Assembly: GCF_029581275.1 (NCBI RefSeq)
Contig: NZ_CP120742.1
Coordinates: forward strand, 5,022,501-5,086,500
Direction: 5' to 3'
Length of the DNA: 64,000 bases
From: Micromonospora sp. WMMD1155
Lineage (GTDB): Bacteria; Actinomycetota; Actinomycetes; Mycobacteriales; Micromonosporaceae
The notes below the pieces were generated by a model. That model did not search any database, was not told where the DNA came from, and was given only the letters and a program-made list of their open reading frames with translations. Positions 20,201 through 55,526 of this stretch are shown piece after piece. Numbering within the stretch: position 1 is the stretch's first letter; each line of letters starts with the position of its first letter. Made by a program: the position numbers and the translations under genes.

Positions 20201-20411
20201 GATGCCCATCGTCGTCAAGGTTAGCGAGGGTGGTGTCGAGCAGCTGCTGCGTCTCGAACCGCAACTGCGCGAGTGCGCCTCGTTTCTCCCAGGCTGTGAC
20301 AGAGTTGACGTTGACGCCGAGGTGCCCGGCGAACTCGCGAATGCTCATCCGCATTGCTTCGCGTAGTGCCTTGGCTTCCAGCCCGGACCATCGCGCCACC
20401 ACCCGGTTCAC
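17232..20411 (-). CDS. XRE-HTH / NACHT-like NTPase / HEAT-like / degenerate HUMPS-domain fusion
   Basis: The 1059-aa protein has four parts. Residues 16-45 form an XRE helix-turn-helix (SIREFAGHLGVNVNSVTAWEKRG). Residues 158-400 are a STAND/NACHT-like NTPase with Walker A GPPGSGKTT at 162-170. Residues around 600-830 contain HEAT-like blocks (SHADWRVRAALADGVL, EDYKVRAVVAKGIA, DANWHVRASLLHGLL). Residues 839-1047 are a HUMPS barrel (3-hexulose-6-phosphate synthase/OMP-decarboxylase type) with QVALDL, EVGDPLIKQAG and phosphate-binding GVSGG/VGRSI. The catalytic DxKxxD is replaced: Glu898 and Met900 stand where Asp and Lys are expected, with Asp903 kept. A sensor or effector role is inferred; no known function is assigned. 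Confidence 0.78.
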   Translation of the reverse strand: MNRVVARWSGLEAKALREAMRMSIREFAGHLGVNVNSVTAWEKRGALAQLRFETQQLLDTTLANLDDDGHRRFHLMLNEVNATSATSNEVLPDSRAADRHTADDDGGQDQQGLGHRSVQRTVALLSALTAGRGQLAFVPADGVADRLRQFLESTARVFVVKGPPGSGKTTMVSHLTAELGDEIDSQIHTVDSWPLGQLELPSQILRYASAPAGDDPLLTLEQQTAGLNRVLLVAIDGICSREQLHEIGRQLDRILRHITDLNLRFVLVVRTPPDLELTGHPVLAASVYEPDLADRGASCRIMPWSPEQARRVWDGALQPGQPVFTDLPNSLQKLATLPLYLTLLRSADMADLGVPSTAFRLVGHCVQNILRRSNVDPALATDMLSDLALRQSDVLLPQAMMGTASPHRSGNRTIPSGDLPPLVIVTSDGPRFAHDVIGEYFAADRIAELVARQGRSVASVSALNDLAEQSIASANARGIFDFVVACIDEREPDLAAAIALSPTISVDTALPLMLRVATPTMRLAQVLQSSANRCNQPNALELTRALLSTSALAGALDETYSEWAISVLRTFGTEIWPDMLPHLEQTVDAAMATQLLKTADLERGEEATFFARHAMLFHGISSDQWLEALVSHADWRVRAALADGVLDESSLHYRLAIAPLIQRLVADEDYKVRAVVAKGIARADLSNWKQEIQALAADANWHVRASLLHGLLSNPNGLEASQGLVAGLLAEDARWRGAPADAARLRHRLLLLSDIAAADRSIHRSRALFGLLREVRTNWTALPQTTVERLLEDGRKSPEWMVRREAAAFRPPGRTQSGNAGSAPRMARREDFRRLRGKHAVQVALDLHDLDHALDVAKALAAAGVQLIEVGDPLIKQAGVRAIEEVKRVVGTTSVVAEMMSADWGRDQVEQAAEAGADVVLLIGPATTASVSAAVEAGRRLDTPIMLDIPTLHASQQWVGDMERAGVDGFTITSNIDIGIGVGHPLARARAVRSWTRLPVGVSGGFSVTDLPVLASQDWDVLIVGRSITEAIRPRSAIDQLLKTLDTQQGRRPHADHRS

Positions 20412-21139
20412 GGCAGCCGCCTCCCATCGAACGACGCCTAAGGTCGTGCCTCAGCGCTCACCCCAGCGAGACGGCTACTCGGCACCTTGCCCACACTGGA
20501 GCCATCTTTCTGGGTATTTCATATTTTGCAAGCGTCAATCGCAGCAGCATGCGGCTTTCTGGGGCCGGTCGATCGAAGGTCCTCCGTTCTCTCCTGCGCG
20601 GGGCGGCCAGGCACCGAGCGCTAACGAGCAGGCAGAGCCTTACGACGGCCGCGGGGGCACGTCGCTCGGTCGAACCGCGGGTGGCGACACCTGCTCCTGA
20701 CGCGCCGCGCCGCTCATCGGTGGACGGCCGGCGCTCGCGTACGCCGTCCGGGTGACGGTCACCCCTCGCCCGGCATCCACCGAGCATGATGCCGTACAGG
20801 GGCGCAGCCCCGCTCCTACACGACTTCCCGCAATTCGCCCTGCTCGACGTGGAACCTGGCTAATGACCGCGGGTGTCATGCCCGCGATGAGCGGGTCCCA
20901 CCGTTGGGACAAGACCAATGCAAGACCGGTGCATCGCGGTGTTCCCGGCACTCTCCGTGCGTCAGAGGATCTTCACGAAGAGCTGCCCAGTGTGGCTCCT
21001 CGACCTTAAGCGCCGCCGGTCCCAAATCTCGGACGCATCCCGCGCGGACTCTGCAGCCGAATCCTGGCAGCTCAAGGGCTAGTCGTCTCGTGACGCAGCG
21101 GCGCGTAGCTCCGTCCCGCCCACTATCTAAGGAGACGCT
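20412..21139. other. Intergenic region between divergent genes
   Basis: About 730 bp separate the - strand NACHT-like gene from the + strand conservon. Short frames here have no domain character and skewed composition, so I call no gene. It must hold both divergent promoters; AAGGAG just before 21140 is the conservon ribosome site. Confidence 0.5.
20750..20764. promoter_or_regulatory. Palindrome, possible operator
   Basis: GGGTGAC-G-GTCACCC is a perfect 7+1+7 palindrome in the divergent intergenic region. It could be a binding site for a dimeric regulator such as the adjacent XRE-domain protein, but nothing beyond symmetry and position supports that. Confidence 0.3.
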
Positions 21140-36589: not shown

Positions 36590-37167
36590 GTGGGCCTCCT
36601 GGCATCACAGTCAGTGTGTAACCAGAGCCCCAGCGACGGTCGCCGGCGATGTGAAGACGGCCGTCCAATGCTCAGGTGAAGCCGCTCAGCGCGACGGTCT
36701 GCGGGGACAACGTACTGGGAAGGAGCGCGACTCCCCCTGTGCCACGTGTGGTGCTGTTGCAAGTCGCTGCCAGGAGCGTCGGCCAGGATCGGCAGTGGCC
36801 CCGAAGTCTGCTGCTCCGAGGCCACTGACGCCAGCTCGCTTCGACGCAGGGGTGCCGCGTGACGGCAACCGCGGAGGCATGCGCCCCGCGGACTTCTGCC
36901 TGGCGCAGGCTCTCTGGCGCGCATCGCGCATCCCCCCGATCTCGCTTTTAGATGCGCTGCCCGTCTCCGATCCGGCATCGCCGGTTCCGCCAGGTGTCGA
37001 AACAACGGACACCTGTTGTAACACTATGGTTGTCCGATACCGTGTCACTGCCACATCAGTGGCCGTGCCCGGCAAGCTTCGCACCGGGCGGTACGGCTCC
37101 GCAACTGTTGTGGTCGAAAATTCACTTTGTCCACGATAGTGGCGCGTCGAGGAGCTGGGGAGTGACC
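36590..37167. other. Intergenic region upstream of XRE regulator
   Basis: No convincing gene. It separates the divergent ImmA-like and XRE genes and must hold their promoters; an inverted repeat at 37006-37036 is listed separately. Confidence 0.45.
37006..37036. promoter_or_regulatory. Inverted repeat, candidate operator for the XRE gene
   Basis: CGGACA (37006-37011) and TGTCCG (37031-37036) form an inverted repeat with a 19-bp spacer, and a smaller ACAAC/GTTGT repeat (37002-37019) overlaps it. Position 130 bp upstream of an XRE regulator suggests autoregulation; this is inference from symmetry alone. Confidence 0.3.
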
Positions 37168-37632
37168 ATGACGGACTCTGGGGGTGGACCAGGGTCGCAC
37201 CCTTCGGCTGGGCCAGGGTCTGGAGGCTCCACGTTCGCGGGTCGACTCCAAGCTCTGTTCGACGAACGCCTGAAGAAGGACACGGAGAAGAAGTTCACGC
37301 CGGAGGAGGTCTCCGCCGCCACCGGCCTGTCGGTGTCCTATTTGAACTATCTTTTGAGCGGCGAGCGGGACAACCCCACCATGAAGAACATCCAGCGTCT
37401 GGCTGACTTCTGGGGTGTTAGTCCGAGTTACTTTTTCGACTCGGCCGAGCCTGCGGACCATGCTTCGGCTCCCGAGGCGGACCCTGACCTCGCTCAGATC
37501 ACAGTCCTGGCGCGAAACCTACCTCCCGGCATGCCAAGGGCTACCTTGCGGGCGATTGTTGAGCAGGTTGCCGCTTTGGAGGCGCGGCGGAACCCCCCGC
37601 CGCGTCGCGGCGGTCGACCCGGTTCCACCTGA
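37168..37632 (+). CDS. XRE-family transcriptional regulator
   Basis: The 154-aa protein has a Gly/Ser-rich start and then an XRE helix-turn-helix: FTPEEVSAATGLSVSYLNYLLSGERDNPTMKNIQRLADFWGVSPSYFF. The C-terminal 60 residues are helical and end in a basic Arg/Pro-rich tail. The layout resembles actinobacterial regulators paired with ImmA-type peptidases, consistent with the peptidase genes at 35573 and 38584. ATG 37168 is chosen because GGAG lies at suitable distance; a GTG six bases upstream is also in frame. Confidence 0.82.
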   Translation: MTDSGGGPGSHPSAGPGSGGSTFAGRLQALFDERLKKDTEKKFTPEEVSAATGLSVSYLNYLLSGERDNPTMKNIQRLADFWGVSPSYFFDSAEPADHASAPEADPDLAQITVLARNLPPGMPRATLRAIVEQVAALEARRNPPPRRGGRPGST

Positions 37633-39120: not shown

Positions 39121-40350
39121 ATGCTGGTGGCGATCGGTCATATAGTCACAGCGGTGCTCGCTATGGCGGCGTTTCTGATCAAGCTCGGAGCGCTGAGGCG
39201 AGACCCTGATGATCCCAAAATTCAGGCGAGCGTGGCAATCTGCCTTGGCTGCGCAGTGGCCGTCATCGTGGGCTGGGCGCCGGTGTATGCCGCAGTCGAT
39301 CAAGCCACCGGTATACCGAACGTCACGAAGATCCTGGAGAACGGCTCCGTTCTGGTAGTGGCTGCTGCGGTGCAGATCTTGTTTCTATACCTCGGTGACC
39401 CGGAGAAGGCTCCGCGCCGGCTCCGGGTCCGGTTGGTGCTGCTTACCGCCGTACTTTGTCTGATGGTAGCCATGTTTGCGGCGGCCGACGTCCCTGTATC
39501 CGAACCTCTGCATTTCGCGGAGAGGTATGCGGAACTGCCGGAAATCGGCGTTTATATGCTGGGTTATTTGATTTGCCTAGCTGTGGCAATTGGCGACATT
39601 TTGCGAATGTCGATCCGCTACGCGAAGTTCGCCGAGCGACGGCTGCGTGTGAGTATGAGGCTGCTCGCGATTGGCGCCACTTTCGGTGCCGGATACGTAG
39701 TGCACAAAGGTCTCTTCATTGCCTTGAAGCTGCGAGGCATCGATCCCCCGTGGTCTGAACCGATCGTGTCGCAGGCGCTAATCACGTTAGCGTTGCCGCT
39801 AGTGTGCATCAGTCTCGTATTTTCATCCGCATGGAAATTCGCTGATGCGGTGCGAGCGCTGCCCCGACGACGTCGCCTGTATCGGCGACTACATCCACTG
39901 TGGTACGTCCTCTTCCAGGCAACGCCTACTATCGCGCTTGACCCTCCTCGTAGACCCGAGCGGGCCAAAGGTGTACTGCTGAGCGCCGGGCAGCACTTAT
40001 ATCGGCGATGCGTAGAGATTGCCGACGGCCTACAAGCGCTCGGCCCGCTGGACGCAGGAGTCATTGCTGAGGCGAAGCGAAGTGCGGCAGGCGCCGGCTA
40101 CAGCTTCGACCGGGCTGCTGCGGCTGGCGAGGCGGCGGCAATTCTAGCCGCCATGCGGAGGCTCAATTCACCGGCAAAAGCCGGACCGGAACTGCAGGAT
40201 GAGCCCGGTCTGGAGCCGCAGGAATCGCTTGTTTCACATCCGGATATTGAGGCCGATGCGCAGCGGCTGGCCTTAGTGTCCGACGCGCTCGACGAGCTGC
40301 TGGCAAGGGATTCCAATAGCGCGGCGGCAGTGCCCGCGAATCGAAAGTAG
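39121..40350 (+). CDS. MAB_1171c-type putative transporter/membrane protein
   Basis: The 409-aa protein has seven hydrophobic helices in residues 1-235 (IGHIVTAVLAMAAFLIKLGAL onward) and a soluble C-terminal DUF6545-like domain (LHPLWYVLFQATPTIALDPPR, LYRRCVEIADGLQAL, DRAAAAGEAAAILAAMRRL). Its C-terminal domain resembles that of the ImmA fusion at 35573. The ATG follows the peptidase gene by 12 bp. Transport function for this family is a database-style label and not shown by motif; a sensor role is equally possible. Confidence 0.78.
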   Translation: MLVAIGHIVTAVLAMAAFLIKLGALRRDPDDPKIQASVAICLGCAVAVIVGWAPVYAAVDQATGIPNVTKILENGSVLVVAAAVQILFLYLGDPEKAPRRLRVRLVLLTAVLCLMVAMFAAADVPVSEPLHFAERYAELPEIGVYMLGYLICLAVAIGDILRMSIRYAKFAERRLRVSMRLLAIGATFGAGYVVHKGLFIALKLRGIDPPWSEPIVSQALITLALPLVCISLVFSSAWKFADAVRALPRRRRLYRRLHPLWYVLFQATPTIALDPPRRPERAKGVLLSAGQHLYRRCVEIADGLQALGPLDAGVIAEAKRSAAGAGYSFDRAAAAGEAAAILAAMRRLNSPAKAGPELQDEPGLEPQESLVSHPDIEADAQRLALVSDALDELLARDSNSAAAVPANRK

Positions 40351-40358
40351 GAGAAATC

Positions 40359-41189
40359 TTGACTGACCAGCGGACAGCTGCCGGCAGCGTCGACTTCGGT
40401 CGCGCCACCGTCGCCCGTATCTACGACTACCTTCTCGGTGGTGAGAGGAACTTTCCCGCTGATCGGGCGGCCGCGCATCAGCTCCTGCAGGCCGTCCCAG
40501 AGGCTCGGGATATTGCCTGGTCGAATCGCCTGTTCCTGCGCCGAGCCGTACATGTGCTGGCCGAGACCGGCATCCGGCAATTCCTCGACCTAGGCTCGGG
40601 CATTCCTACTCAAGGTAACGTTCACGAGGTCGCGCAAGCAATCGCTCCAGACAGCCGGGTGCTCTACGTCGACATCGACCCCGTCGCGGTCGTCGCATCC
40701 AATGAAATCCTGATGGGCGGCCCGCACCGCGCGCTGGAAGGCGACTTCACCCAGCCTGAGCTTCTACTGGACACCCTCACCGACAGTGACCTGGCAACGG
40801 TGATTGACCTGAACAGGCCAGTCGCAGTGCTCTACTGCGCGGTGCTCCAGCAAGTGCCCGACAATCGGATAGATGCCGTTATCGCACCCATCCGAGACCA
40901 GCTTGCTCCCGGAAGCGCGATGGTCATTTCGCACCTGAGCGCCGCAGACGTGACCGACGCCTATGACGAGACAACCGTCTCCACGGCAAAGAGTGTGTTC
41001 AAAGCGCAGGCGGCCACCGAAATTACACTCCGAACGGACGCGCAGCTCGGCGCCCTGTTTGGTGACTTCACCATTATGGCACCCGGACTGGTGCCGCTCA
41101 GCGATTGGCGTCCAGAGTTGAGTGGGCCTGACCCCTACGCCACTGCACCGACTCGGTCGCCGATGCACGGAGCCGTCGCTACGCGCTGA
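40359..41189 (+). CDS. DUF574 SAM-dependent methyltransferase
   Basis: The 276-aa protein has the DUF574 opening VDFGRATVARIYDYLLGGERNFPADR, then FLDLGSGIPTQGNVHEVAQ (SAM motif I) and VLYVDIDPVAVVAS. The TTG start at 40359 has GGAGA five bases upstream, and the gene is 8 bp after the membrane protein gene. This family is abundant in actinomycetes; substrates are mostly unknown. It is the last gene of the XRE/ImmA-associated group on the + strand. Confidence 0.85.
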   Translation: MTDQRTAAGSVDFGRATVARIYDYLLGGERNFPADRAAAHQLLQAVPEARDIAWSNRLFLRRAVHVLAETGIRQFLDLGSGIPTQGNVHEVAQAIAPDSRVLYVDIDPVAVVASNEILMGGPHRALEGDFTQPELLLDTLTDSDLATVIDLNRPVAVLYCAVLQQVPDNRIDAVIAPIRDQLAPGSAMVISHLSAADVTDAYDETTVSTAKSVFKAQAATEITLRTDAQLGALFGDFTIMAPGLVPLSDWRPELSGPDPYATAPTRSPMHGAVATR

Positions 41190-43426: not shown

Positions 43427-43776
43427 AGAATGCTCCCCCGTTGATGGCGCCCGTGTGGAAGATGGGCGCGTTTGTTCGGCTGTGTTCTAGCCGATTCGGA
43501 ACGCTAGCGGAGCGAGGCGGATCGAACTAGATCCTGTTGATGTAGCCGATCGCGTTTGCGACCCATTTCCGCAGCACAAGGCGGTGTTGTCGGAGCTGAC
43601 GGCTGCGTTGAGAATCGGCTAGGGGTGGCCGCATATGTGGACACGGCCCCCATCGCGTGCTGAATTTGACGTGCTTGGCATGGTCCCCGAAACGGGGGGA
43701 GGGGCCATCGTCAACCGTTCGCGCAACTGTGCGAACTGGCTATTCCTGCACCCCCCGGATAGGTGCGCTGCGCATT
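43427..43776. other. Intergenic region, no gene seen
   Basis: This 350-bp divergent gap contains the promoters of the LPXTG-protein gene and the lipoprotein gene. The frame of the lipoprotein stays open upstream of 43777 but shows no protein-like sequence. Confidence 0.4.
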
Positions 43777-44448
43777 ATGGATCTGCGTTGGAACTTAGCC
43801 CTCTCGCAAGCGACGAGCCGTCGCTCTCGACGACGCCAACTCCGCCGTCTTGCCGGAATCTGGCTGGCGACGATGACGATGCTCACTCTTGGTGCCTGCG
43901 CCCAATCCGAGCCGACGCCGGCAACGACCTCCGTCCCCGGCAGCCCGTCCACCACCGCGGGTGCTGGCTTGTCGGCTTCTTCGGCGGCGGGTGGAGTGAT
44001 TTACCGTCGAATCGATAAGGCCTGTGAGGTGCTGGACCCTGCGCCGCTGCGGGAAGTCTTCGGCGAGCCCGGTTACCAGCAGGACGAGGTACGGCAGGTT
44101 GGCGCTACCGCCAACATGACGTGCGCAATGGCCCTTGGAAAGTCGCCCGGAGGGGCCGTGGTGACGCTGCTGGCTACGGTCGGCGGCCCGGCCTCGGGCC
44201 ACATCATGTACGAGGGACTGCGCGGCGTCCAACAGGACAGCGGCCCGATGAGCGACATCGCTGGTCTGGGTGCTGGCGCCTACAGCTACACCGATGAGCT
44301 GACCGGCACACACGTCGTGGTCTACGACAACAACCTGTACCTGACCCTCGGCGCTGCCCCGCTGCGTCCCGGCGCCGCCATGCCAGGCGATCTGGTGGAT
44401 CGCCTGACACGGGTCGCGAGTGCCGCCCTGTCCGGCCTACACGGCTGA
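43777..44448 (+). CDS. Lipoprotein, possibly DUF3558-like
   Basis: I choose the ATG at 43777 because it puts a basic region and hydrophobic segment directly before the lipobox LTLGAC. The mature part has a Ser/Thr/Pro linker and a domain with KACEVLDPAPLREVFGEPGY and TCAMALGK, the pattern of DUF3558-type lipoproteins. It ends 81 bp before the haem-enzyme operon and may or may not be co-transcribed with it. Confidence 0.65.
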   Translation: MDLRWNLALSQATSRRSRRRQLRRLAGIWLATMTMLTLGACAQSEPTPATTSVPGSPSTTAGAGLSASSAAGGVIYRRIDKACEVLDPAPLREVFGEPGYQQDEVRQVGATANMTCAMALGKSPGGAVVTLLATVGGPASGHIMYEGLRGVQQDSGPMSDIAGLGAGAYSYTDELTGTHVVVYDNNLYLTLGAAPLRPGAAMPGDLVDRLTRVASAALSGLHG

Positions 44449-44529: not shown

Positions 44530-45249
44530 GTGGCCACGACACCTTTGCCGGCCGTGCTCCCCGGTACCGGGACGACCGACTACGCCCGCTACATGCGCAC
44601 CGATGACCTGCTCGCCCTGCAACGCGGCCCTCGCGAGTGGGTGCACCCCGACGAGCTGCTGTTTCAGGTCGTGCATCAGAGCAGCGAGTTGCTGCTCAAG
44701 CTCACGCAGTCGCAGCTTGCCCGGTCCCTTGACCACCTGGCGGTGGATCAGCCCGGCGCGGCTGAACTCCTGCTGCGCCGCGCTGCGCTCGGCTTGCACC
44801 TGATCACCGAGCAGCTGCAGATGCTGCGGCACCTTCATCCCGCGCACTTCGCGGTGATCCGGAGCGCCCTGGGCACTGGTTCGGGCTTCGAGTCACCCGG
44901 ATGGCGTCTGGTCCGGTCGGCGACGACGGAGTTGGACATCGCCTTTAGTCGCGTCCTGTCCTCCCGGGGGCTCACGCCGCTCGACCTGTATCAGGGTCAG
45001 CCGTCGGATCCGCTGTACCGGGTGGCGGAAGCGCTGGTGGAGTTGGACGAGCGGATTGCGCTGTGGCGCACCGAGCACTACAGCGTCGCCACGCGGATCA
45101 TCGGTCACGGCGTTCTCGGTACCCGAGACACGCCCGTCGACAGCCTGATGCGGCTGATCTCCCACCGCCGGTTCCCCACGCTGTGGGAGGCGCGTTCGGA
45201 TCTGACTGAGGCCAGCCCTCGTGGCCGCGCCAGCAGGCAGGTGGGCTAA
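44530..45249 (+). CDS. Tryptophan 2,3-dioxygenase-like haem enzyme
   Basis: The 239-aa protein follows the TDO pattern: DYARYMRTDDLLALQ, HPDELLFQVVHQSSELLLKL, GSGFESPGWRLVRS, and WRTEHYSVATRIIGHGVLGTRDT, which holds the probable haem-ligand His and the substrate-contact Thr, then FPTLWEARSDL. It is shorter than usual TDO (about 270-290 aa), and the active-site HHDE motif reads HPDE, so the His next to the Asp is lost. This suggests altered chemistry, as in TDO-like monooxygenases. The GTG start has GGAGG upstream. First gene of the operon, stop overlapping the next start by 1 bp. Confidence 0.8.
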   Translation: MATTPLPAVLPGTGTTDYARYMRTDDLLALQRGPREWVHPDELLFQVVHQSSELLLKLTQSQLARSLDHLAVDQPGAAELLLRRAALGLHLITEQLQMLRHLHPAHFAVIRSALGTGSGFESPGWRLVRSATTELDIAFSRVLSSRGLTPLDLYQGQPSDPLYRVAEALVELDERIALWRTEHYSVATRIIGHGVLGTRDTPVDSLMRLISHRRFPTLWEARSDLTEASPRGRASRQVG

Positions 45250-46418
45250 TGAGCGCCCTCCCTGCCAACCCGCTCGTCGAGTTGCGGCAGCGTTTCCCGA
45301 CGTTAGCGCACAACGTGCATCTGGCGGCGTGCAGCGTCGCACCGCTCAGCACCGGCATGGATCAATCCCTGAACCAGATGCGCGACGACCTCGGCCGGCC
45401 AGGGTTCTGGACCGTATGCGAGGAGCAGCTGTGGCAGGCCCGGCGGGCTTTCGCCACACTGATTGGCGCCGACATCGATCAGGTCGCCGTCGTACCCAAC
45501 GCCAGCATCGCCGCGTATCAAGCCAGCGCGGGAATGCGATGGCGTCGTCGCCGCGCGCTGGTTACCACGACTGCGGAGTACCCGGGCGTCGCTCACGTGT
45601 GGCTGGCCCAGCAGGCCCGCGGGGCGAAGGTCCGTTGGTGCGGTAGTGCCACCGGCCAAGCCGCCACGAGCGATTACCTCGCGGCCATCACGGCCCGAAC
45701 GGCGCTGGTGTCGGTGCCTGCCGTGACCTACCGTGACGCAACCCGCCTTGACGTGACTCGCATCGCCGAGGCGGCACATGCCGTCGGCGCCGCGCTGTTC
45801 GTCGACGCCTATCAGGCCGTCGGCGTCATGCCGGTAGACGTCAACGAGTTGGGCTGCGACTACCTCGTTGCCGGCACGGGCAAATACTTGCTCGGCCTGC
45901 CCGGCTTAGCCCTCATGTACGTTCGCGACCCCTTGGGGCCGGCGCCGACACTGACCGGCAGGTTCGGTCGAATCGCTCCGCAGGCATTCGACCCGCTGAC
46001 GTTGGACTTTCCACCGCACGCCCGTCGCTTCGAGACGGGCACACCCTCGGCCGCCGCGACCTACGCCGCCGTCGCCGGTCTCGACATGATCAACCGACTC
46101 GACCTCGTCGCGGTCCGCCAGCACACACAACGTCTGATCGCTGTCGCTGCTGTCCGCCTGGCTGGGCAGGGAGAGACGGTTCGCCTAGCCAGCACGGCGG
46201 ACGAGCAGGGCGCTCACCTGGCCGTCGTGGAGCCGCACGCCGAGGCGATGACGGCGTGGTTGGCGCACCGCGACATCACCGTCGCACCTCGCACCGGCGT
46301 CGTCCGCTTGGCTATGCACGCCTACACCACCCTCGACGACATCGATGCCCTCTGCGCGGCAATCGAGTCCTACCGAACGAGGTCCCGCAGTCGGCAGCAG
46401 ACCGGAGCACCACGATGA
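45249..46418 (+). CDS. Class V PLP enzyme, kynureninase/cysteine-desulfurase-like
   Basis: The 389-aa protein has class V aminotransferase features: FVDAYQAVGVMPVDV with the PLP Asp186 and the Schiff-base Lys212 in VAGTGKYLLGLPGLAL, and RRFETGTPSAAATYA. Kynureninase is the obvious candidate beside a tryptophan dioxygenase-like gene, but cysteine desulfurase-like or other lyase activity cannot be excluded from sequence. The ATG overlaps the preceding stop, and the stop overlaps the next start (ATGA). It supplies or cleaves a Trp/kynurenine-type intermediate in the inferred pathway. Confidence 0.75.
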   Translation: MSALPANPLVELRQRFPTLAHNVHLAACSVAPLSTGMDQSLNQMRDDLGRPGFWTVCEEQLWQARRAFATLIGADIDQVAVVPNASIAAYQASAGMRWRRRRALVTTTAEYPGVAHVWLAQQARGAKVRWCGSATGQAATSDYLAAITARTALVSVPAVTYRDATRLDVTRIAEAAHAVGAALFVDAYQAVGVMPVDVNELGCDYLVAGTGKYLLGLPGLALMYVRDPLGPAPTLTGRFGRIAPQAFDPLTLDFPPHARRFETGTPSAAATYAAVAGLDMINRLDLVAVRQHTQRLIAVAAVRLAGQGETVRLASTADEQGAHLAVVEPHAEAMTAWLAHRDITVAPRTGVVRLAMHAYTTLDDIDALCAAIESYRTRSRSRQQTGAPR

Positions 46419-47668
46419 GCCGGCCTGAGCCGCTGCGTCTGTGGCTGGAACAACGGCGACCATCCACCGCCCGGTTCCCCTTCACGACCGTGGTGAACGC
46501 CTACCAGTACCACGGCAAAACCTTTGTACCCGAGGAGTGGACCCGGCTGCTGACTGCCGCCCGCGAGCGGCTGCCCGAGGTCCGCGGCGCGCGCCGAGCT
46601 CAACTGTCCGCGTTCCTGGACACCGCGCTCGACAAGGTCGACCGCCGATACGACTACCGGACGTACCTGGCATTGAACCTGCTGCCGATCATCGGCGCCG
46701 ACGAACCGCCGGCGGACGAGCTGCGGTTATTGACCCGCCGCGATCGGCTGCACGTCCACCTCTTGACCGACCTGATGGCCTTCGAACTCCAAGCCATCAG
46801 CGGCGCCCCGGTACCGCTGCCGCAACTACGCCCCGGCGCGCCACTGGTGGCCAAGCGCCTGCGCCACGCGCTGCGCGCGGCGATGCCCGCCCTGCGCCGG
46901 CTGCGACTGACCAACGCGGTAGACAGCGGCGAGCACACCACCATCGCCCGCCAAGTGATCGCGGCCGTCGACCGGGACATCAGCACCAACGAACGGTGGT
47001 CGACGCAGGTCAGCATGCTGCCGGTCTGGATCATCCATGACGAGTGGATGTTCATCCGGGTCCTGCAAGGCTTCGAGGCATCCTTCGCGCTCCTCGCGGC
47101 GGACCTGCGGGCCGCCATCGCCAACGTTCAGGACGGCCGCATGCAACTGGCCGCAGCCCGCCTGTCCGCCGCGGCGGCTCTGCTGCGGGAGAGCGCCCCA
47201 CTGTGGTCGCTGATGGCGACCCTGCAACCCGAGGCGTTCCACCGGTTCCGGCGCTACACCGAAGGCGCGAGCGCCATCCAATCGCGCTCATACAAGATGC
47301 TGGAGTCTCTGTGCCGCCTTCCCGATCCCGAGCGACTCAACTCGCCGGCCTACCTGTCGGTGCCCGAGGTGCGATCCGAAATCGAGGGCGGCCACCTGAG
47401 CCTCGACGACGCCCTCGACGTCCTCGCTCAAAGGGGCGGGTATGCGGCCGAGTCACCGGTGATGGCTGCCGCCATGCGCAACTTCGCCGCCGCCCTACGA
47501 CAGTGGCGCCAGACGCACTACCGCCTCGCCGTGCGGATGCTCGGCCCGGGTCAACCCGGCACCGGCTACACGCAGGGCACCTCCTACCTAGCTGGCACCC
47601 GCCATGAACCCGTGTTCAGGCACTGCCCTCGGCGCGACGGCGACACCTCCGCCGGAGCCGACACATGA
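46415..47668 (+). CDS. PrnB/IDO-TDO-superfamily haem enzyme
   Basis: I start at ATG 46415, overlapping the previous stop. The 417-aa protein has RFRRYTEGASAIQSRSYKMLESL, the 'SAIQS' block of the indoleamine/tryptophan dioxygenase superfamily, and WRQTHYRLAVRMLGPGQPGTGYTQGTSYL, with the probable proximal His in WRQTH and the GTGYT loop. Length and layout match PrnB (pyrrolnitrin ring-rearranging enzyme) or IDO more than TDO. Two members of one haem superfamily in a single operon are unusual. It overlaps the NOS gene by 4 bp. Confidence 0.72.
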   Translation: MSRPEPLRLWLEQRRPSTARFPFTTVVNAYQYHGKTFVPEEWTRLLTAARERLPEVRGARRAQLSAFLDTALDKVDRRYDYRTYLALNLLPIIGADEPPADELRLLTRRDRLHVHLLTDLMAFELQAISGAPVPLPQLRPGAPLVAKRLRHALRAAMPALRRLRLTNAVDSGEHTTIARQVIAAVDRDISTNERWSTQVSMLPVWIIHDEWMFIRVLQGFEASFALLAADLRAAIANVQDGRMQLAAARLSAAAALLRESAPLWSLMATLQPEAFHRFRRYTEGASAIQSRSYKMLESLCRLPDPERLNSPAYLSVPEVRSEIEGGHLSLDDALDVLAQRGGYAAESPVMAAAMRNFAAALRQWRQTHYRLAVRMLGPGQPGTGYTQGTSYLAGTRHEPVFRHCPRRDGDTSAGADT

Positions 47669-48903
47669 ACACCACGACGAGCCCAGACGCGTCCCCGCAG
47701 AGTGACCTGCTCACTGAGGCGTACGAATTCCTGCGCTTGCTGCACCACGAGACCGGGCAGCCCGGACTCACCCGCCGGTGGCGCGACGTCCGCGCCGAGA
47801 TCACCGCGACCGGCACCTGGCGACACACCACGCAAGAACTGACCTACGGCGCCCGAGTGGCATGGCGCAACTCCGCCCGCTGCATTGGCCGGCTGCGCTG
47901 GCAGAGCCTGCAAGTTCACGACTGTCGGCACGCCAGCGATGCCAACGCCGTGCGCCAAGCGTTGACCAACCACCTACATCGAGCGACAAATGGCGGACGT
48001 GTCCGGTCCGTCATGACCGTCCTCCCGCCCGTACCGCAAGAAGGCCCCGCGCTGGTCCGGATCATCAACCCGCAGCTCGTCCAGTACGCCGCTTGGCCTA
48101 ACAGTGGCACGATCCTCGGCGACCCCGCGAACCTCAACCTTACGCGACTGGCGACCGCCCTGGGCTGGGCCGGTCCGCCCGAGCGCGGCCCGTTCGACGT
48201 TCTGCCCTGGATCATCGCCACCGACACCGGCCGGCTGCACGCGCTCCCCGTCGACCAGGCCGCGATCCGCGAAGTCCCGATCCACCACCCGCAGCACCGA
48301 TGGATCGGTGAACTCGGGCTGAGGTGGCCGGCGGTGCCCGTCATCAGCCACATGCTGCTCTCCATCGGCGGCGTGCAGTACCCCGCCCCGTTCTCCGGCG
48401 TCTTCATGTCCTCGGAGATCGCAGCCCGCAACCTCGCTGACGCCGAGAGGTACCACCAGATCCCCGCCGTCATCGATGGCCTGCAGCTCGCCGACGACGA
48501 CCGGCTACGTCATGACAAGGCGTTGCTCGTACTCCAGGAAGCGGTCCTCTACAGCTATGACCGCGCCAGCGTCACGATCACCGACCATCACCGCGAGAGC
48601 GAGCACTTCACCCGGTTCGTGCGCCGCGAAGAGGCCGCCGGACGCGTCGTGGTTGGCGATTGGACCTGGCTTAACAGCTACCCGATGACCCCACAGGATC
48701 CGAGCTGGGGGCGCTACTACAGCACCTCGACACTCCGACCCGCCCTCTATCCGGATCCCGCCGCAGCCGCGCTCCCTGCCGCGGCCGGCTCCCTATGCCC
48801 CCACTCGGGTTCAGCGGCGACCGCCGCCGAACCCGACCACCAGCGCGCCGCTCCCTCCACGGCCGCTGTCGTTTGTCCGCTTTCTGCCCAGGAGGAGCAA
48901 TGA
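47665..48903 (+). CDS. nos: Nitric oxide synthase oxygenase
   Basis: The 412-aa protein is a bacterial NOS oxygenase: haem-ligand Cys73 in WRNSARCIGRLRWQ, PFDVLPWIIATDTGR, the substrate Glu251 in GVFMSSEIAARNLADAERY, and DHHRESEHF with GDWTWLNSYP near the end. The usual GWYMGTEI is changed to GVFMSSEI, removing the conserved Trp, so substrate placement may differ. About 45 Ala/Pro-rich residues extend the C-terminus. No reductase gene is in the operon, as usual for bacterial NOS. Known role: arginine to NO and citrulline. Start overlaps the PrnB-like stop. Confidence 0.9.
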   Translation: MNTTTSPDASPQSDLLTEAYEFLRLLHHETGQPGLTRRWRDVRAEITATGTWRHTTQELTYGARVAWRNSARCIGRLRWQSLQVHDCRHASDANAVRQALTNHLHRATNGGRVRSVMTVLPPVPQEGPALVRIINPQLVQYAAWPNSGTILGDPANLNLTRLATALGWAGPPERGPFDVLPWIIATDTGRLHALPVDQAAIREVPIHHPQHRWIGELGLRWPAVPVISHMLLSIGGVQYPAPFSGVFMSSEIAARNLADAERYHQIPAVIDGLQLADDDRLRHDKALLVLQEAVLYSYDRASVTITDHHRESEHFTRFVRREEAAGRVVVGDWTWLNSYPMTPQDPSWGRYYSTSTLRPALYPDPAAAALPAAAGSLCPHSGSAATAAEPDHQRAAPSTAAVVCPLSAQEEQ

Positions 48904-49391
48904 CAGCAGTAATCCAGCCGAGGTCCGACAACGACCGCCGGCCCACACGCAACAAGATCCGACGTGGCATTGCCGCGGCAGTCGGCCTGATCGCCATGGC
49001 AGCCACGCTCACGGTGTCGGCGGCAGCCGCGCAAGCGGCCAGCGGATGCCGCAGCGCGCCCTACAGCGCCAGGTTCGGCCTGTCCGATCCCTTCATGGCG
49101 TTCGACGGCGTCGAAGTCGCCTCGGCCCCGTACGGAGGCACGTACCGCACCACCACCCAGTGCCGCGACATCCAGGTGAAAAATACTGGCAATGGACGCT
49201 CCGACGGCGCTCCGTTCCACGCATGCGTTGTCTTCTCAGGCCGGGCAACGTGCGCGAACGGCTGGACCTACGTGCCTCCCGGACAGTGGAGGAACTTGGC
49301 AACCAACGTCAAGGACGGAACCCGTTTCAACGTCTGGATCTCGGTCAACCTCGGCAGGTACTACGGCGCCCAGGCGGTCGGTGACTGGTGA
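48900..49391 (+). CDS. Small secreted protein of the NOS operon
   Basis: The 163-aa product has a basic N-terminus and signal (RRGIAAAVGLIAMAATLTVSAAAAQAA), cleaved before a roughly 115-residue domain with four Cys (SGCRS, TTQCRD, FHACVV, ATCANG), likely two disulfides, and an aromatic-rich sequence (TYVPPGQWRNLATNV, VNLGRYYGAQ). Such folds resemble actinomycete secreted small proteins with an Ig-like beta layout. Its coupling (ATGA) to NOS is odd for a pathway enzyme; a product-binding or protective role is speculation. Confidence 0.7.
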   Translation: MTAVIQPRSDNDRRPTRNKIRRGIAAAVGLIAMAATLTVSAAAAQAASGCRSAPYSARFGLSDPFMAFDGVEVASAPYGGTYRTTTQCRDIQVKNTGNGRSDGAPFHACVVFSGRATCANGWTYVPPGQWRNLATNVKDGTRFNVWISVNLGRYYGAQAVGDW

Positions 49392-50461
49392 CCGACCCAA
49401 CAGCCGTCCTGAACGGGCAGCAACGACCCCGAACAGTCGGCGACGGGCGGGCGGTCCCGGGGCCAGCGCCCCGGGCTGCCCGCCCGGCAGCCGGCGACGT
49501 CACACGGGCACCGGCGAACCTTCAAGGAAAGATCGCCGTAGTGACCGGAGCAAACACGGGACTGGGCTACCAGACCGCCCGCCAACTAGCAGCGATGGGC
49601 GCGACGGTAGTCCTGGCCTGCCGACATCCAGGCCGCATGCGCCAGGCCGCAGACGCCATCCGCAACGAACTACCGGGCGCCGTCATCGACGAGGTCGCAC
49701 TAGACCTCGGAAGCCTACGATCAGTCAGAAGCGCCGCCGAACAGATTGCCCACACCTATCCACGGCTAGACATACTCGTCAACAACGCGGCAGTGATGGG
49801 CGTACCCCAATGGGCCACGCTGGATGGATTCGAAACCCACTTCGGCGTCAACTACCTGGGCCACTTCGCCTTCACTGGACTGCTGTTGGACAGACTACTC
49901 GCCGCACCAGCAGGGAGGATCGTGAGCGTCAGCAGCATCGCTCACCACGCGGCGCGACTCGACCCGCTAGATTGGCCGAACCCAATCAAATACAGGCCGC
50001 ACCGTGCCTATGCCGCAAGCAAGCTAGCGAACCTCATCTATGCGTACGAACTCCACCGACGTCTAACTGTCGCTGGTTCTGCTGCGCGTAGCATCGCCTG
50101 CCACCCCGGCTGGTCGGCAACACAACTGCTCCACAAAGCATCTAGGCTCTCGGGACATCGCCTCGGGATGACTGCGTGGCTACGACTGCTCGCGGCAATC
50201 GTGGCGCAGCCACCGGAGGACGGGGCGCGCCCAACCCTGCACGCCGCCAGCGGCGACGTGCGCTCCGGGGGCTATGTGGGTCCGACTCGCATGTGGCACA
50301 CACGCGGTCCAGCCGGCCTTGACCAATCCAGCTACGACTCTCGTGATGTCACCGCCGCGCGGCTGCTGTGGGACCTGTCGGTGGAACTAACCGCCGTCAG
50401 CTACGCCGCCCTCGCCGTCGACGAGGCAGCGATCGTGCAAATCGATCAGGGCACCGCCTAA
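49388..50461 (+). CDS. Short-chain dehydrogenase/reductase
   Basis: The 357-aa protein has the SDR nucleotide loop TGANTGLG (53-60), NNAAVMG, and catalytic YAASK (in HRAYAASKLANL), plus a 48-residue low-complexity N-terminal extension before the Rossmann strand. It is of the retinol-dehydrogenase-like extended type. The GTG start overlaps the secreted protein's stop, making it the last gene of the NOS operon. Expected substrate: a ketone or alcohol intermediate; unknown. Confidence 0.85.
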   Translation: MTDPTAVLNGQQRPRTVGDGRAVPGPAPRAARPAAGDVTRAPANLQGKIAVVTGANTGLGYQTARQLAAMGATVVLACRHPGRMRQAADAIRNELPGAVIDEVALDLGSLRSVRSAAEQIAHTYPRLDILVNNAAVMGVPQWATLDGFETHFGVNYLGHFAFTGLLLDRLLAAPAGRIVSVSSIAHHAARLDPLDWPNPIKYRPHRAYAASKLANLIYAYELHRRLTVAGSAARSIACHPGWSATQLLHKASRLSGHRLGMTAWLRLLAAIVAQPPEDGARPTLHAASGDVRSGGYVGPTRMWHTRGPAGLDQSSYDSRDVTAARLLWDLSVELTAVSYAALAVDEAAIVQIDQGTA

Positions 50462-50874: not shown

Positions 50875-52104
50875 GTGCTGAGCGTGGAGGACTGGGCGGA
50901 GATCCGTCGGTTGCACCGGGCGGAGCGGATGGCGATCAAGGCCATCTGTCGCCGGCTGGGGGTCTCGCGGAACACGGTGCGTAAGGCCTTGGCCAGTCAT
51001 GAGCCGCCTCGCTATCAGCGGGCGGCGAAGGGCTCGATCGTGGACGCGGTCGAGCCGCAGATCCGGGCGTTGTTGGCGGAGTTCCCGGACATGCCGACGA
51101 CGGTGATCATGGAGCGGGTTGGGTGGGCCCGCGGCAAGACGGTGTTCGCCGATCGGGTGCAGCAGTTGCGGCCGTTGTTCCGCCGCCCGGACCCGGCCCA
51201 GCGGACGGAGTATCTGCCGGGCGAGTTGGCGCAGTGTGATCTGTGGTTCCCGCCGGCGGACGTGCCGTTGGGCTTCGGGCAGGTCGGCCGGCCGCCGGTG
51301 CTGGTGATGGTGTCCGGGTATTCGCGGTGGCTGTCAGCGGTGATGATCCCGACCCGGCAGTCACCGGACTTGCTGGTCGGGCACTGGACGCTGATCTCCG
51401 GCTGGGGACGGGTGCCCAAGGCGTTGGTGTGGGACAACGAGTCCGCCGTCGGGCAGTGGCGGGCTGGCAGGCCGCAGCTGACCGAGGCGATGAACGCCTT
51501 CCGCGGCACCCTCGGCATCAAGGTGATTCAGTGCCGACCGGCGGACCCGGAGGCCAAGGGCCTGGTCGAGCGGGCCAATGGCTATCTGGAAACCTCGTTC
51601 CTGCCCGGACGCCGTTTCGCCTCGCCCGGCGACTTCAACACCCAGCTCACCGACTGGCTGGTGGGGGCGAACAACCGCCAACACCGGATGCTGGGCTGCC
51701 GCCCGCTGGACCGGTGGGACGCCGACCGGGCCGCGATGCTGTCACTGCCACCGGTCGCGCCGGTGGTCGGCTGGCGCCAGGCCACCCGGCTGCCCCGCGA
51801 TCACTACGTCCGCTTGGACGGCAACGACTACTCGGTGCACCCATCCGTGGTCGGCAGGCGGGTTGAGGTCACCGCCGACTGCGACCACGTGACGGTGGTC
51901 TCCGACGGCCGGCCCGTGGCCCGACATGACCGCTGCTGGGCAAGCCATCAGAGCATCACCGACCCTGCCCACCGGCAAGCCGCCGCCGACCTGCGCGTCG
52001 CTGCCCAACACAAGCCGACGACCGCGGTCGACGCCCAGGTCGAACGCCGGCCGTTGAGCGACTACGACCGCATGTTCGGCCTGGACGTCGAGGTGGCTGC
52101 GTGA
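50875..52104 (+). CDS. istA: IstA transposase (IS21 family)
   Basis: The 409-aa protein has an N-terminal helix-turn-helix (MAIKAICRRLGVSRNTVRKAL) and an rve-type DDE core: the first Asp in QCDLWFPPADV, Asp in LVWDNESAVG and Glu in DPEAKGLVERANGYLE. The GTG at 50875 is the start. Frame intact; it overlaps istB by 4 bp. Confidence 0.92.
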   Translation: MLSVEDWAEIRRLHRAERMAIKAICRRLGVSRNTVRKALASHEPPRYQRAAKGSIVDAVEPQIRALLAEFPDMPTTVIMERVGWARGKTVFADRVQQLRPLFRRPDPAQRTEYLPGELAQCDLWFPPADVPLGFGQVGRPPVLVMVSGYSRWLSAVMIPTRQSPDLLVGHWTLISGWGRVPKALVWDNESAVGQWRAGRPQLTEAMNAFRGTLGIKVIQCRPADPEAKGLVERANGYLETSFLPGRRFASPGDFNTQLTDWLVGANNRQHRMLGCRPLDRWDADRAAMLSLPPVAPVVGWRQATRLPRDHYVRLDGNDYSVHPSVVGRRVEVTADCDHVTVVSDGRPVARHDRCWASHQSITDPAHRQAAADLRVAAQHKPTTAVDAQVERRPLSDYDRMFGLDVEVAA

Positions 52105-52892
52105 TGGCCGCCAAGACCAGCCGCAACGTCGCCTCGGAGATCGCGTTCCTCACCCGCGCCCTCAAGGCGCCGTCCCTCGCTGCCTCCGTCGAACGCCTGG
52201 CGGAGCGGGCCCGGGCCGAGTCATGGACGCACGAGGAGTTCCTCGCCGCCTGCCTGCAACGCGAAGTCGCCGCCCGCGAAGCACACGGCGGCGAGGGACG
52301 TATCCGGGCAGCCAGGTTCCCCGCCCGCAAGAGCCTGGAGGAGTTCGACTTCGAGCACCAACGCTCTCTGAAGCGGGAGACGATCGCCCACCTGGGCACC
52401 CTCGACTTCGTGGCGTCGAAGGAGAACGTCGTCTTCCTGGGCCCGCCCGGCACCGGCAAGACCCACCTGTCCATCGGCCTGGGGATCCGGGCCTGCCAGG
52501 CCGGACACCGGGTCGCGTTCGCCACCGCCGCCCAATGGGTGTCCCGCCTCGCCGACGCCCACCACGCCGGCCGACTGCAAGACGAGCTCGTGAAGCTCGG
52601 CCGGATCCCGCTGCTGATCGTCGACGAGGTCGGCTACATCCCCTTCGAAGCCGAAGCGGCGAACCTGTTCTTCCAGCTCGTCTCCAACCGCTACGAACGA
52701 GCCTCGCTGATCGTCACCAGCAACAAGCCCTTCGGCCGCTGGGGCGAAGTGTTCGGCGACGACGTCGTCGCCGCAGCCATGATCGACCGCCTCGTCCACC
52801 ACGCCGAGGTCATCTCGATGAAGGGCGACAGCTACCGGCTTAAAGACCGCGACCTCGGCCGCGTTCCCGCAGCCACCAAGACCAACGACTGA
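52101..52892 (+). CDS. istB: IstB-like ATP-binding transposition helper
   Basis: The 263-aa DnaC/IstB-type AAA+ protein has Walker A GPPGTGKTHLSIGL, Walker B LLIVDEVGYIPFE and a sensor-like SLIVTSNKPFGRWGEVF. IstB selects target DNA and activates IstA. The start overlaps istA. Confidence 0.92.
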   Translation: MMAAKTSRNVASEIAFLTRALKAPSLAASVERLAERARAESWTHEEFLAACLQREVAAREAHGGEGRIRAARFPARKSLEEFDFEHQRSLKRETIAHLGTLDFVASKENVVFLGPPGTGKTHLSIGLGIRACQAGHRVAFATAAQWVSRLADAHHAGRLQDELVKLGRIPLLIVDEVGYIPFEAEAANLFFQLVSNRYERASLIVTSNKPFGRWGEVFGDDVVAAAMIDRLVHHAEVISMKGDSYRLKDRDLGRVPAATKTND

Positions 52893-53265: not shown

Positions 53266-53751
53266 GTGTACAAGAAGCTGATTGACGGCGTTGAATCATC
53301 AGTTATAAAAGTAAACGCCCGCCGATCTGGGTCGGAGCGACACGATCAGCAGACCATAGCATCGTCCCCGGGAATGCCACTCCCACCCCTTGTGAGACGT
53401 GCGCGGCCAGCTGCAGGGCTTTGTGTGATAACGCCGCTCGACGCTAGTGGTCGTCTGGCGGATCGTGCTGTATTGCGGTCGCTCGGGTGGATTGCGGGCC
53501 GTTCGCTCGAGATTGTCCATCAGAACGGCACTGTTGTTGTAACCGAACAACGTAATGGACGTTCAAGATTGACAAGCGAGGGTCATCTTCTGCTTCCATC
53601 GTCAGTGAGGCGAAGCTGCGGCATGGCGGGAGGTGACCGGGTTCTTGCTCTGGCCCATCCAGATCGCTGCTCTCTCGTGATCTTCACTATGAGCGCCCTG
53701 GAGTTGATGGTAGAACGATATGCCGGCGAGGCAGAGCTGCGACGATGGTGA
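53266..53751 (+). CDS. AbrB/SpoVT-like protein next to the recombinase
   Basis: The C-terminal part, RLTSEGHLLLPSSVRRSCGMAGGDRVLALAHPD, has the swapped-hairpin AbrB/SpoVT pattern, and the preceding 60 residues are a divergent half-copy. The reading frame opens at 53266, but the first residues are unlike the rest and an ATG at 53374 (MPLPPLVRRARPAAGL) is more likely the start. The stop overlaps the recombinase start by 7 bp. It probably regulates or assists the recombinase. Confidence 0.6.
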   Translation: MYKKLIDGVESSVIKVNARRSGSERHDQQTIASSPGMPLPPLVRRARPAAGLCVITPLDASGRLADRAVLRSLGWIAGRSLEIVHQNGTVVVTEQRNGRSRLTSEGHLLLPSSVRRSCGMAGGDRVLALAHPDRCSLVIFTMSALELMVERYAGEAELRRW

Positions 53752-54812
53752 CGGATGGCTTGGGTGCCGAGGGTGAGGATCTGAGGGCAGCACGTCTGCT
53801 CTTGGCTCGCTTAGGCGTGACGCCAGAGCAACTTTTAACTGTTAAGGCCGCGCCCCGTGTGATGCCTACGTTCGCTGAGTACATAAATCTCGTATCCGAG
53901 TCGGTCACGGCTGGCACCCGGCGCGTTTATTGGACATATTGGCAGAAAGTGCAGAATGTTTGGGGCGACAGACGTCTCGACGAGGTGAGTCCGCTTGAGA
54001 TTAGGCAGCTCGCTGAACGGATCAAGGGACAGGTGGTGATTCGCCGCAACTCTCGCGGCGGCCGGACAGCGGCCGAACATCTCATCTCCTCGCTTAGGTG
54101 TCTTTATGCCCGGGCGGTAGCCGACGGACTTCTAGCCGAGTCAGACAACCCTGCCAGGCGAGTGCCGAAGCCGCGGCGGCTAGCCAGCACTCGCCGAGCG
54201 CTGTCGGATGACCAATTGGAGTTGATCAACGGTGTGGCTGCTACAACCGGTAACGACCCTGATCTAGATAGCCTGCTGTTGCGTCTCCACATCGAGACTG
54301 CCTGTAGGCGTGGGGGCGGACTCGCTCTTCGCCTCGGAGACATCGACTTTGACCAGTGTGTTGTTCAGTTGCAGGAGAAGGGTGAGACAGTGCGATGGCA
54401 GCCCGTCTCGCCAACATTGGCCAGCCGTCTTCGCCAGCACGCTCTCGATCGCGGCTGCAACCATCCGCAGGACAGTGTGCTCAGGTACCGAAACGGTGCG
54501 CCGATCACCCACCGCCGTCACGACTACTTGTGGCAGCGCCTGGGCAAACATCTGCCTTGGGTTAGGACGCACCAGATCAGCACGCACTGGTTGCGCCATA
54601 CAACGCTCACATGGGTCGAGCGACGATTCGGATACGCCGTCGCGCAGGCCTACGCGGGCCACGCGGGGAGGGCTGACGCCTCTACGACTAGCACTTATGT
54701 GCGGGCGGACATCTTCGAGGTGGCACAGGCACTCGTGGCGCTTTCCGGCGAGCCGCACCCTTTGCTTGCGTCTAGCCCGAGAGGGGAGACGCTCGAAGGC
54801 CGCGCTGACTGA
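53745..54812 (+). CDS. Tyrosine recombinase/integrase
   Basis: The 355-aa protein has the full catalytic set: Arg188 in ETACRRGGGLALRLGD, Lys212 in QLQEKGE, His281 and Arg284 in HWLRHTTLTWVE, His306 in YAGHAG, and Tyr318 in STYVRAD. The N-terminal half has the SAM-like core-binding helices. It is intact, with an AbrB-like partner upstream. I did not find a tRNA gene or attachment site nearby, so it may not integrate at a tRNA. A degraded relative follows at 54964. Confidence 0.9.
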   Translation: MVTDGLGAEGEDLRAARLLLARLGVTPEQLLTVKAAPRVMPTFAEYINLVSESVTAGTRRVYWTYWQKVQNVWGDRRLDEVSPLEIRQLAERIKGQVVIRRNSRGGRTAAEHLISSLRCLYARAVADGLLAESDNPARRVPKPRRLASTRRALSDDQLELINGVAATTGNDPDLDSLLLRLHIETACRRGGGLALRLGDIDFDQCVVQLQEKGETVRWQPVSPTLASRLRQHALDRGCNHPQDSVLRYRNGAPITHRRHDYLWQRLGKHLPWVRTHQISTHWLRHTTLTWVERRFGYAVAQAYAGHAGRADASTTSTYVRADIFEVAQALVALSGEPHPLLASSPRGETLEGRAD

Positions 54813-54963: not shown

Positions 54964-55526
54964 GGAGCTCAACCAGGTCGTCCGCACCGGCGGCAACGAG
55001 ATCATCCTCGACGCGCTACTGCTGCGGCTGCACAGCGAAACCGCCTGCCGACGCGGCGGCGCCCTTGCGCTGCGTCTGATCGACTGCGACACCGACCGAG
55101 GGCTCATCCGTTTGCGTGAGAAGGGCCGGACCCAGCGCTGGCAACCCGTAACACCCGTGCTCGCCAGCCGGCTGAACGACAACGCCCGAGCACGTGGCGC
55201 CGTCGCACCGACTGACGCGCTGCTGCGCTACCGCAACGGCCAACCCGCCCCCTACCAGCGCTACGACCTGCTGTGGAAACGCATCGGCCGGCAGTTGCCG
55301 TGGGTCGCCGTCCAGGGATGCCAGCCATTGGCTGCGCCACACCACCCTCACCTGGGTGGAACGGCACTTCGGCTACGACGTGGCCCGCGTCTACGCCGGG
55401 CACACCGACAGCCGCGGACCCGCCACCACCACCTACATCAAAGCCGACCTCACCGCCCTCGCCGCCCTCACGGGCCAACCCCACCCACTGGCCGTCGCAC
55501 CCAAATCGGAAGGCCCTTGTGAGTGA
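54964..55526 (+). pseudogene. Degraded tyrosine recombinase (frameshift, N-terminally truncated)
   Basis: After an in-frame TAG, ELNQVVRTGGNEIILDALLLRLHSETACRRGG and RLREKGRTQRWQPVTPV closely match the intact recombinase, then the frame breaks near 55320 and resumes one base later with SHWLRHTTLTWVERHFGYDV, YAGHTDSRG and TTYIKADL. The N-terminal third is absent. This is a decayed second copy of the 53745 gene family, left by duplication or an older element. Confidence 0.85.

Follow-up and report, generated by a model that had tools for sequence, protein, structure and literature searches.

A six-gene operon of Micromonospora joins a divergent nitric oxide synthase to a recurrent cassette of two predicted haem proteins and a class V PLP enzyme

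The genome of Micromonospora sp. WMMD1155, a single contig of 7.34 Mb, carries within a stretch of 64 kb (genome positions 5022501-5086500, hereafter the window) an operon encoding a protein related to tryptophan 2,3-dioxygenase (TDO), a class V pyridoxal 5'-phosphate (PLP) enzyme, a haem protein with the predicted shape of indoleamine 2,3-dioxygenase (IDO), a divergent nitric oxide synthase (NOS), a small secreted protein and a short-chain dehydrogenase/reductase (SDR). The first three genes form a core cassette that recurs across actinobacteria, several times within larger clusters that look biosynthetic, and in Micromonospora the remodelled NOS, the secreted protein and the SDR have been joined to this core. 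Because of the gene order, the codon differences between related operons, the context of the cassette in other genomes and the MarE-like fold of the TDO-like protein, we favour a specialised-metabolite operon that acts on a tryptophan- or kynurenine-type amino acid. Specialised metabolism of the tryptophan/kynurenine type is probable; that the whole operon, with a NOS step, makes a specialised metabolite in Micromonospora is our best explanation, held with slightly more doubt than confidence, and the view of NOS as a donor of nitrogen to the product is more tentative still.

The initial annotation had described a coupled six-gene operon, and this description holds, since all six reading frames (44530-50461) are present and intact and neighbours overlap by 1-4 bases. 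Four of the genes, NOS and SDR being left out, were compared codon by codon with those of M. inaquosa (L002; L numbers denote loci throughout). The TDO-like gene shows 7 synonymous and 0 nonsynonymous changes per 239 codons, the PLP gene 54 and 23 per 389, the IDO-shaped gene 50 and 23 per 417, and the secreted-protein gene 21 and 7 per 163; this synonymous excess is consistent with purifying selection on the four genes. The claimed lack of a cytochrome P450 (P450) was also confirmed, given that PF00067 had no match in the 64-kb window; the genome has 11 matches, the nearest about 0.24 Mb away.

A profile scan of genomes with the IDO-shaped protein returned 129 relatives, of which the best 80 loci were kept and searched by tblastn with the window proteins. 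The core triple occurs in the order of the window at 38 of these 80 loci, in hosts that include Streptomyces, Lentzea, Kutzneria, Nocardia, Microbispora and two metagenome-assembled genomes of Chloroflexi. The other 42 were split by manual reading of the tblastn table: 20 have a type-B order (TDO-like, IDO-shaped, PLP, the last matching at 29-32%), six have just the two haem genes within the flanks, at least one of them (L056) ending at a contig edge, five have a distant (27-30%) TDO-family match nearby, and 11 have no TDO-like match. The initial annotation named a core that is not conserved elsewhere as a unit as grounds for its refutation; the three-gene core withstands this check, whereas the four-gene unit with NOS was seen only in Micromonospora (7 of the 80 loci, as judged from the flanks retrieved). 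In Streptomyces antnestii (L025) the core PLP gene and seven neighbours were scanned; the latter encode an ATP-grasp protein over the cut-off, two weak ATP-grasp-like proteins, a FAD monooxygenase, a class IV aminotransferase, a PF04199 cyclase (139.5 bits) and a major facilitator superfamily (MFS) protein, and these families recur in other loci. On a Streptomyces plasmid (L113) the two haem genes lie among genes of the non-ribosomal peptide synthetase (NRPS) type. Neither a published description of the TDO-like/PLP/IDO-shaped cassette nor any compound assigned to the larger ATP-grasp/TDO/PLP/FAD clusters was found in the open-access literature searched. DcsA of D-cycloserine biosynthesis was considered as a possible relative and dropped. 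At another Streptomyces locus (L073) the IDO-shaped gene lies among very large open reading frames of one family, with a P450 at 19501-20691 (PF00067, 78 bits) and no NOS match, so P450s do occur near some IDO-shaped relatives.

The association of NOS with the core was followed in 160 Micromonospora genomes, 43 of which have NOS (44 matches in all); the surroundings of 43 matches were retrieved as stretches of 5.8-20 kb, and the window itself is the 44th. Ten of the 44 are of the window class, nine of them with PMTP[QK], and at all ten loci the gene adjoins the TDO-like, PLP and IDO-shaped genes. An eleventh core-linked NOS, of the PMTPQ class, lies outside the 160-genome set on a plasmid of M. 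zamorensis (L112), where the order is regulator, transporter, hypothetical, NOS, flavohaemoglobin-like, hypothetical, TDO-like, PLP, IDO-shaped, MFS. A second divergent subfamily (27 of the 44; L114-L124, L136-L151) has GHY and VGWAALH, with fuller motifs GHYLxDEIGTRN and NGSVGWAALHAVHHRYY; all 27 adjoin a gene for a flavohaemoglobin-like protein, matched at 139 bits in one case and at no less than 150 bits in the other 26, and none has core genes nearby in the stretches retrieved, two of which are shorter than 6 kb. These two genes are possibly a NOS-reductase or NO-turnover pair. Canonical NOS (WY, TPV) account for six matches, none adjoining the core or a flavohaemoglobin-like gene, and the NOS of genome G044 is a fragment that adjoins neither. 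In favour of a functional link, the weightiest evidence is the contrast between ten of ten loci (11 of 11 once the plasmid is counted) and none of 27 in the sister class, although the ten loci are related by descent. More broadly, NOS was found in 147 of 300 genomes of the family and in 51 of 345 in a class-wide search. The IDO-shaped gene has a patchy distribution (55 of the 300 family genomes at E values up to 1e-30, 18 of them from genera other than Micromonospora), and among the matches listed for these 18 genomes it was never found together with NOS, genome G189 being represented there by one of its three NOS matches.

The window NOS matches PF02898 (374.7 bits, cut-off 22.7), the sole family listed at E values up to 1, and Cys73, Gln137, Glu251, Arg255 and Arg262 are kept in all 42 aligned rows; we take Cys73 to be the haem ligand and Glu251 to bind the guanidinium group of the substrate. 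The canonical motifs GWYMGTEIG and VPPxSGSxTPVFH are replaced by GVFMSSEIAARN and NSYPMTPQDPSW, respectively, and throughout the window clade the canonical GWYMGTEIGARN has become a motif of the G[VFTA]F type, with loss of the substrate-site Tyr. In known NOS, these stretches bind substrate and pterin. Position 348, a canonical Phe, is Trp in 28 and Phe in 10 of the 42 rows, so it is aromatic in most. The replacement of GWY by GVF, pointed out in the initial annotation as a clue to an altered substrate, is indeed present, and as judged from the alignment the motif changes are real and clade-wide and go beyond GVF. The Phe-for-Tyr swap is missing from the other two core-linked branches, which read FY (L112) and SY (L125). 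In a tree of 59 NOS sequences, made by a quick method with Shimodaira-Hasegawa-like approximate likelihood-ratio (SH-aLRT) support, without bootstrap and without PtnF, the divergent types split from the canonical ones with a support of 99, and core-linked NOS fall in three branches, namely the window clade, L125 and the NOS on plasmid L112 (P0273). Every named host among the 33 best NOS matches is Micromonospora.

The TDO-like protein matches PF03301 (69.9 bits, cut-off 34.9) and stays below the TDO equivalog TIGR03036 (102.9 bits, cut-off 390.7). Both haem-fold proteins have the TDO/IDO fold (histidine-ligated haem aromatic oxygenase, HDAO, superfamily) and an invariant proximal histidine as the predicted haem ligand at the WRxxH position, H183 in 50 of 50 aligned relatives of the TDO-like protein and H368 in 60 of 60 of the IDO-shaped one, in agreement with the initial view of two haem-fold proteins. 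The closest match of the TDO-like model is MarE. A sequence HPDE in place of HHDE had been read as a sign of altered substrate; HPDE is literally present, and as a catalytic clue it was rejected, since at the place of its P 31 of 50 relatives have R and the other 19 have P, and the distal His is found instead in an intact F-x-x-x-H-Q motif. The assignment of the distal His to H49, and not to the His of HPDE, follows from the TDO chain 1yw0, which reads IIQHQ where 7p46 reads IIQSQ, from the TDO mutants H55A and H55S, whose structures are solved according to the entry titles, and from MarE, whose His55 lies within FFQVTH in the primer text of PMC11904535.

The IDO-shaped protein scores 48.8 bits with PF03301, for a frame with 53 surplus codons at its 5' end, and 62.3 bits with TIGR03036, whose cut-off of 390.7 is not reached. 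Its predicted model (mean predicted local distance difference test score, 92.8) matches IDO1 and PrnB over almost the full length, among listed matches dominated by human IDO and TDO entries, and shows the two-domain IDO/PrnB architecture. At the sequence level PF03301 is the only family listed at E values up to 1, and no PrnB chain is among the 15 sequence matches at E values up to 0.001; the label "PrnB/IDO-like" used before fits the predicted architecture, and the sequence match is to TDO. The position of the distal His is occupied by an invariant Leu (Leu217).

The PLP enzyme matches PF00266 (122.2 bits), and Asp186, Gln189, Lys212 and Arg353 are invariant in 42 of 42 rows. Position 111 is aromatic (F in 40, Y in 2 of the 42), which we take to be as in kynureninase, and the invariant Gln189 is presumably as in desulfurases. 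The protein remains under the cut-off of each of the 25 NCBIfam families listed for it, out of 34, kynureninase and SufS included. At L062, the one locus scanned among the Micromonospora cassettes of type-B order, the PLP protein carries a kynureninase C-terminal domain over the cut-off (42 bits), and an O-methyltransferase gene comes next; this supports a possible kynurenine-type substrate.

The secreted protein has a signal-peptide-like N-terminus ending in AQA and a mature part that contains Cys, and no Pfam match was obtained for it when scored from an upstream start. Orthologues with at least 57% identity occur in 11 of the 160 Micromonospora genomes and adjoin the core cassette in all 11, which speaks against a mere bystander; more distant relatives (29-50%) occur elsewhere in Micromonospora, however, and a role tied to the core is tentative. 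On the plasmid L112, a different small secreted-looking, Cys-containing protein (15108-15503) is encoded directly upstream of NOS and recalls the window protein, with no clear sequence similarity by eye. The SDR matches PF00106 (100.3 bits) and exceeds the cut-off of NF004846 (296.1 bits, cut-off 268), and homologues at 58-86% (at least 150 bits) are present in L125-L129 and L135. The lipoprotein-like protein encoded upstream of the core (Table 1), which the initial annotation had overlooked, showed only DUF3558 at an E value of 0.0026, below the cut-off; tblastn found homologues with 42-98% identity in 8 of 51 loci (L126-L129, L131-L133, L159), all of which also carry the core.

Table 1. Genes of the operon and its upstream neighbour (positions in the window)
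Feature	Coordinates	Strand	Remarks
TDO/MarE-like histidine-ligated haem protein (TDOL, 239 aa), predicted	44530..45249	+	GTG start; PF03301
Class V PLP enzyme, kynureninase/cysteine-desulfurase-like, 389 aa	45249..46418	+	ATG; 1-base overlap; PF00266
IDO/PrnB-architecture (predicted) haem protein of TDO sequence family, 417 aa	46415..47668	+	ATG; 4-base overlap; PF03301
Divergent NOS oxygenase, 412 aa, 'PMTPQDPSW' subfamily, no reductase domain	47665..48903	+	ATG; 4-base overlap; PF02898
Small secreted protein, 163 aa	48900..49391	+	ATG; 4-base overlap; without Pfam match
SDR, 357 aa	49388..50461	+	GTG; 4-base overlap; PF00106
Lipoprotein-like secreted protein, upstream neighbour of core	43657..44448	+	true start possibly further downstream

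On its 3' side the operon is followed by an IS21-type transposase pair and a phage-type integrase (50875-52892 and 53745-54812) and, by eye, by a second integrase-like reading frame at about 55112-55526, which suggests that this flank is mobile or rearranged. Upstream, an S-adenosyl methyltransferase (PF04672, 249 bits) is encoded at 40359-41189, about 4 kb from the operon, and in six further Micromonospora loci (L003, L005, L007-L010) the core has upstream of it a family that by eye looks the same (cluster c13). A DUF6545 protein (83 bits, 39121-40350) near a helix-turn-helix regulator (36952-37632) gives this upstream region a regulatory-looking set.

In the pathway that we propose, the TDO-like protein, with distal and proximal His intact, would oxygenate the indole of tryptophan or of a derivative to an intermediate of the N-formylkynurenine or oxindole type; the PLP enzyme would then carry out a C-C cleavage or an elimination on a kynurenine-type amino acid, the IDO-shaped protein, which has no distal His, could perform a second haem oxidation, and the SDR may adjust a carbonyl. 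The least certain step is that of NOS, which might supply a nitrogen oxide (NO or the N-hydroxyguanidine product) to decorate the scaffold in a cluster that has no P450; transfer of NO by NOS is plausible. A bolder version, in which the remodelled NOS subfamily co-evolved with the histidine-ligated TDO/IDO-type pair for a P450-free transfer of arginine nitrogen to a tryptophan/kynurenine scaffold (as a nitro, nitroso or N-N product), with the IDO-shaped protein that lacks the distal His handling NO in the NOS-bearing lineage, is distinctly unlikely to be right in this form.

Several observations weigh against a specialised-metabolite operon that depends on NOS. The strongest against the link is that most of the core cassettes examined, some in the same clade, have no NOS: it is absent from the flanks retrieved of 31 of the 38 core triples, and L135 and L160 keep the core and the secreted-protein gene and have no NOS. 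The core can thus do without it. In L135 and L160 the DNA between the core and the secreted-protein gene retains 181-192 bases that can be aligned, at 71-72%, to the 3' end of the L126 NOS, so NOS was most likely deleted there, and since two clusters lost the gene and still keep a remnant, NOS appears to be accessory. In a tree of the three core proteins (42 rows, with weak basal branches and L038 and L071 long), the presence of NOS requires four changes, and nine of the 12 rows of the window clade have it. The tenth window-class NOS (L133) shows the GTF motif, and its frame seems to break off before the place of PMTP. On the chemistry, the PLP enzyme falls short of the kynureninase cut-offs (TIGR01814, 48.1 of 246.4 bits; PF22580, 18.1 of 27), the PF04199 cyclase of L025 reaches 32 of the 223 bits set for arylformamidase, no PF04199 cyclase occurs within the window, and neither a ligase nor an exporter is among the window neighbours scanned. 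Finally, five alphaproteobacterial IDO-shaped relatives (L050, L060, L069, L075, L078) have conserved neighbours in common, which in L050, the one scanned, include oligopeptide ATP-binding cassette (ABC) transporter genes and a TDO-family protein (323.7 bits, cut-off 390.7); this type of locus perhaps looks catabolic. Given the 31 triples, nitration by haem proteins is unlikely as the original job of the core, and the most fitting view of NOS is that of a lineage-specific partner of it.

The alphaproteobacterial loci are also what could be cited for a nutritional role, in which the haem genes and the PLP gene degrade tryptophan or related compounds; several actinobacterial cassettes, however, lie amid ligase, NRPS, methyltransferase and exporter genes, and with the patchy distribution in the family this makes such a role highly improbable. 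It is somewhat less improbable that NO is a signal or stress-defence molecule and that its gene merely travels with the cassette. The sister NOS, beside its flavohaemoglobin-like gene and away from the core, is more in keeping with NO turnover than with biosynthesis, a flavohaemoglobin-like gene adjoins NOS in the plasmid cluster L112 too, and some clusters dispense with NOS; against this, the window NOS is coupled by 4-base overlaps between the core and the secreted-protein gene, the core is found at every PMTPQ-class locus and at none of the sister class, and no flavohaemoglobin gene adjoins the window operon, though homologues exist elsewhere in the genome.

A further alternative concerns the reaction itself: NOS may no longer make NO from arginine and its remodelled pocket may use another guanidine or amine, for example by N-hydroxylating a pathway intermediate. 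The loss of Tyr, the change of VPPxSGSxTPVFH to NSYPMTPQDPSW and the well-separated divergent clade speak for it, but we consider it unlikely, in view of the invariant Glu251 and Cys73, the aromatic residue retained at position 348 in most rows, and the L112 and L125 branches in which Phe has not replaced Tyr.

If the linkage between core and NOS is functional, NO-based biosynthesis gains a class of haem partner distinct from P450, and enzyme assays become possible for an entire NOS subfamily whose active site is changed. Independently of NOS, the core cassette is a widespread module, and the split of Micromonospora NOS into core-linked and flavohaemoglobin-linked types offers a natural contrast for the function of each.

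Among known systems, MarE, the haem monooxygenase that forms the 2-oxindole of maremycin, is the closest match to the TDO-like model, at 24-26% identity; the loop that reads GTGGS in TDO is mostly GT[KR]xTP in the TDO-like family and SLGGR in MarE (PMC11904535). Human IDO1 and PrnB of pyrrolnitrin biosynthesis resemble the IDO-shaped protein in predicted two-domain architecture, but the identity is 14-15% and the window protein is of the PF03301 family, with Leu217 at the distal site; no other gene of the pyrrolnitrin type was seen in the window operon. Kynureninase and SufS have in common with the PLP enzyme the PF00266 fold, Lys212 and the F/Y at position 111, and differ in that the window enzyme fails both cut-offs and has an invariant Gln189. 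For 8-azaguanine, NO is reportedly the origin of N8 of the triazole. The accessible part of PMC10831120, a NOS-guided mining study in which NO is a building block, names NOS genes of the thaxtomin, rufomycin, 8-azaguanine, pyrazolofluostatin and lajollamycin clusters, and links the NOS of the 8-azaguanine biosynthetic cluster, PtnF, to triazole N8; it describes no TDO-type haem protein with these NOS clusters, and "dioxygenase" does not occur in its main text. The operons of thaxtomin (TxtD/TxtE), rufomycin (RufN/RufO) and lajollamycin resemble that of the window in that a bacterial NOS forms part of a biosynthetic operon (PMC10831120). In nitration clusters of the thaxtomin type the partner of NOS is a P450, whereas the window operon has none and is set apart by its remodelled NOS motifs and by predicted histidine-ligated haem partners of the TDO type.

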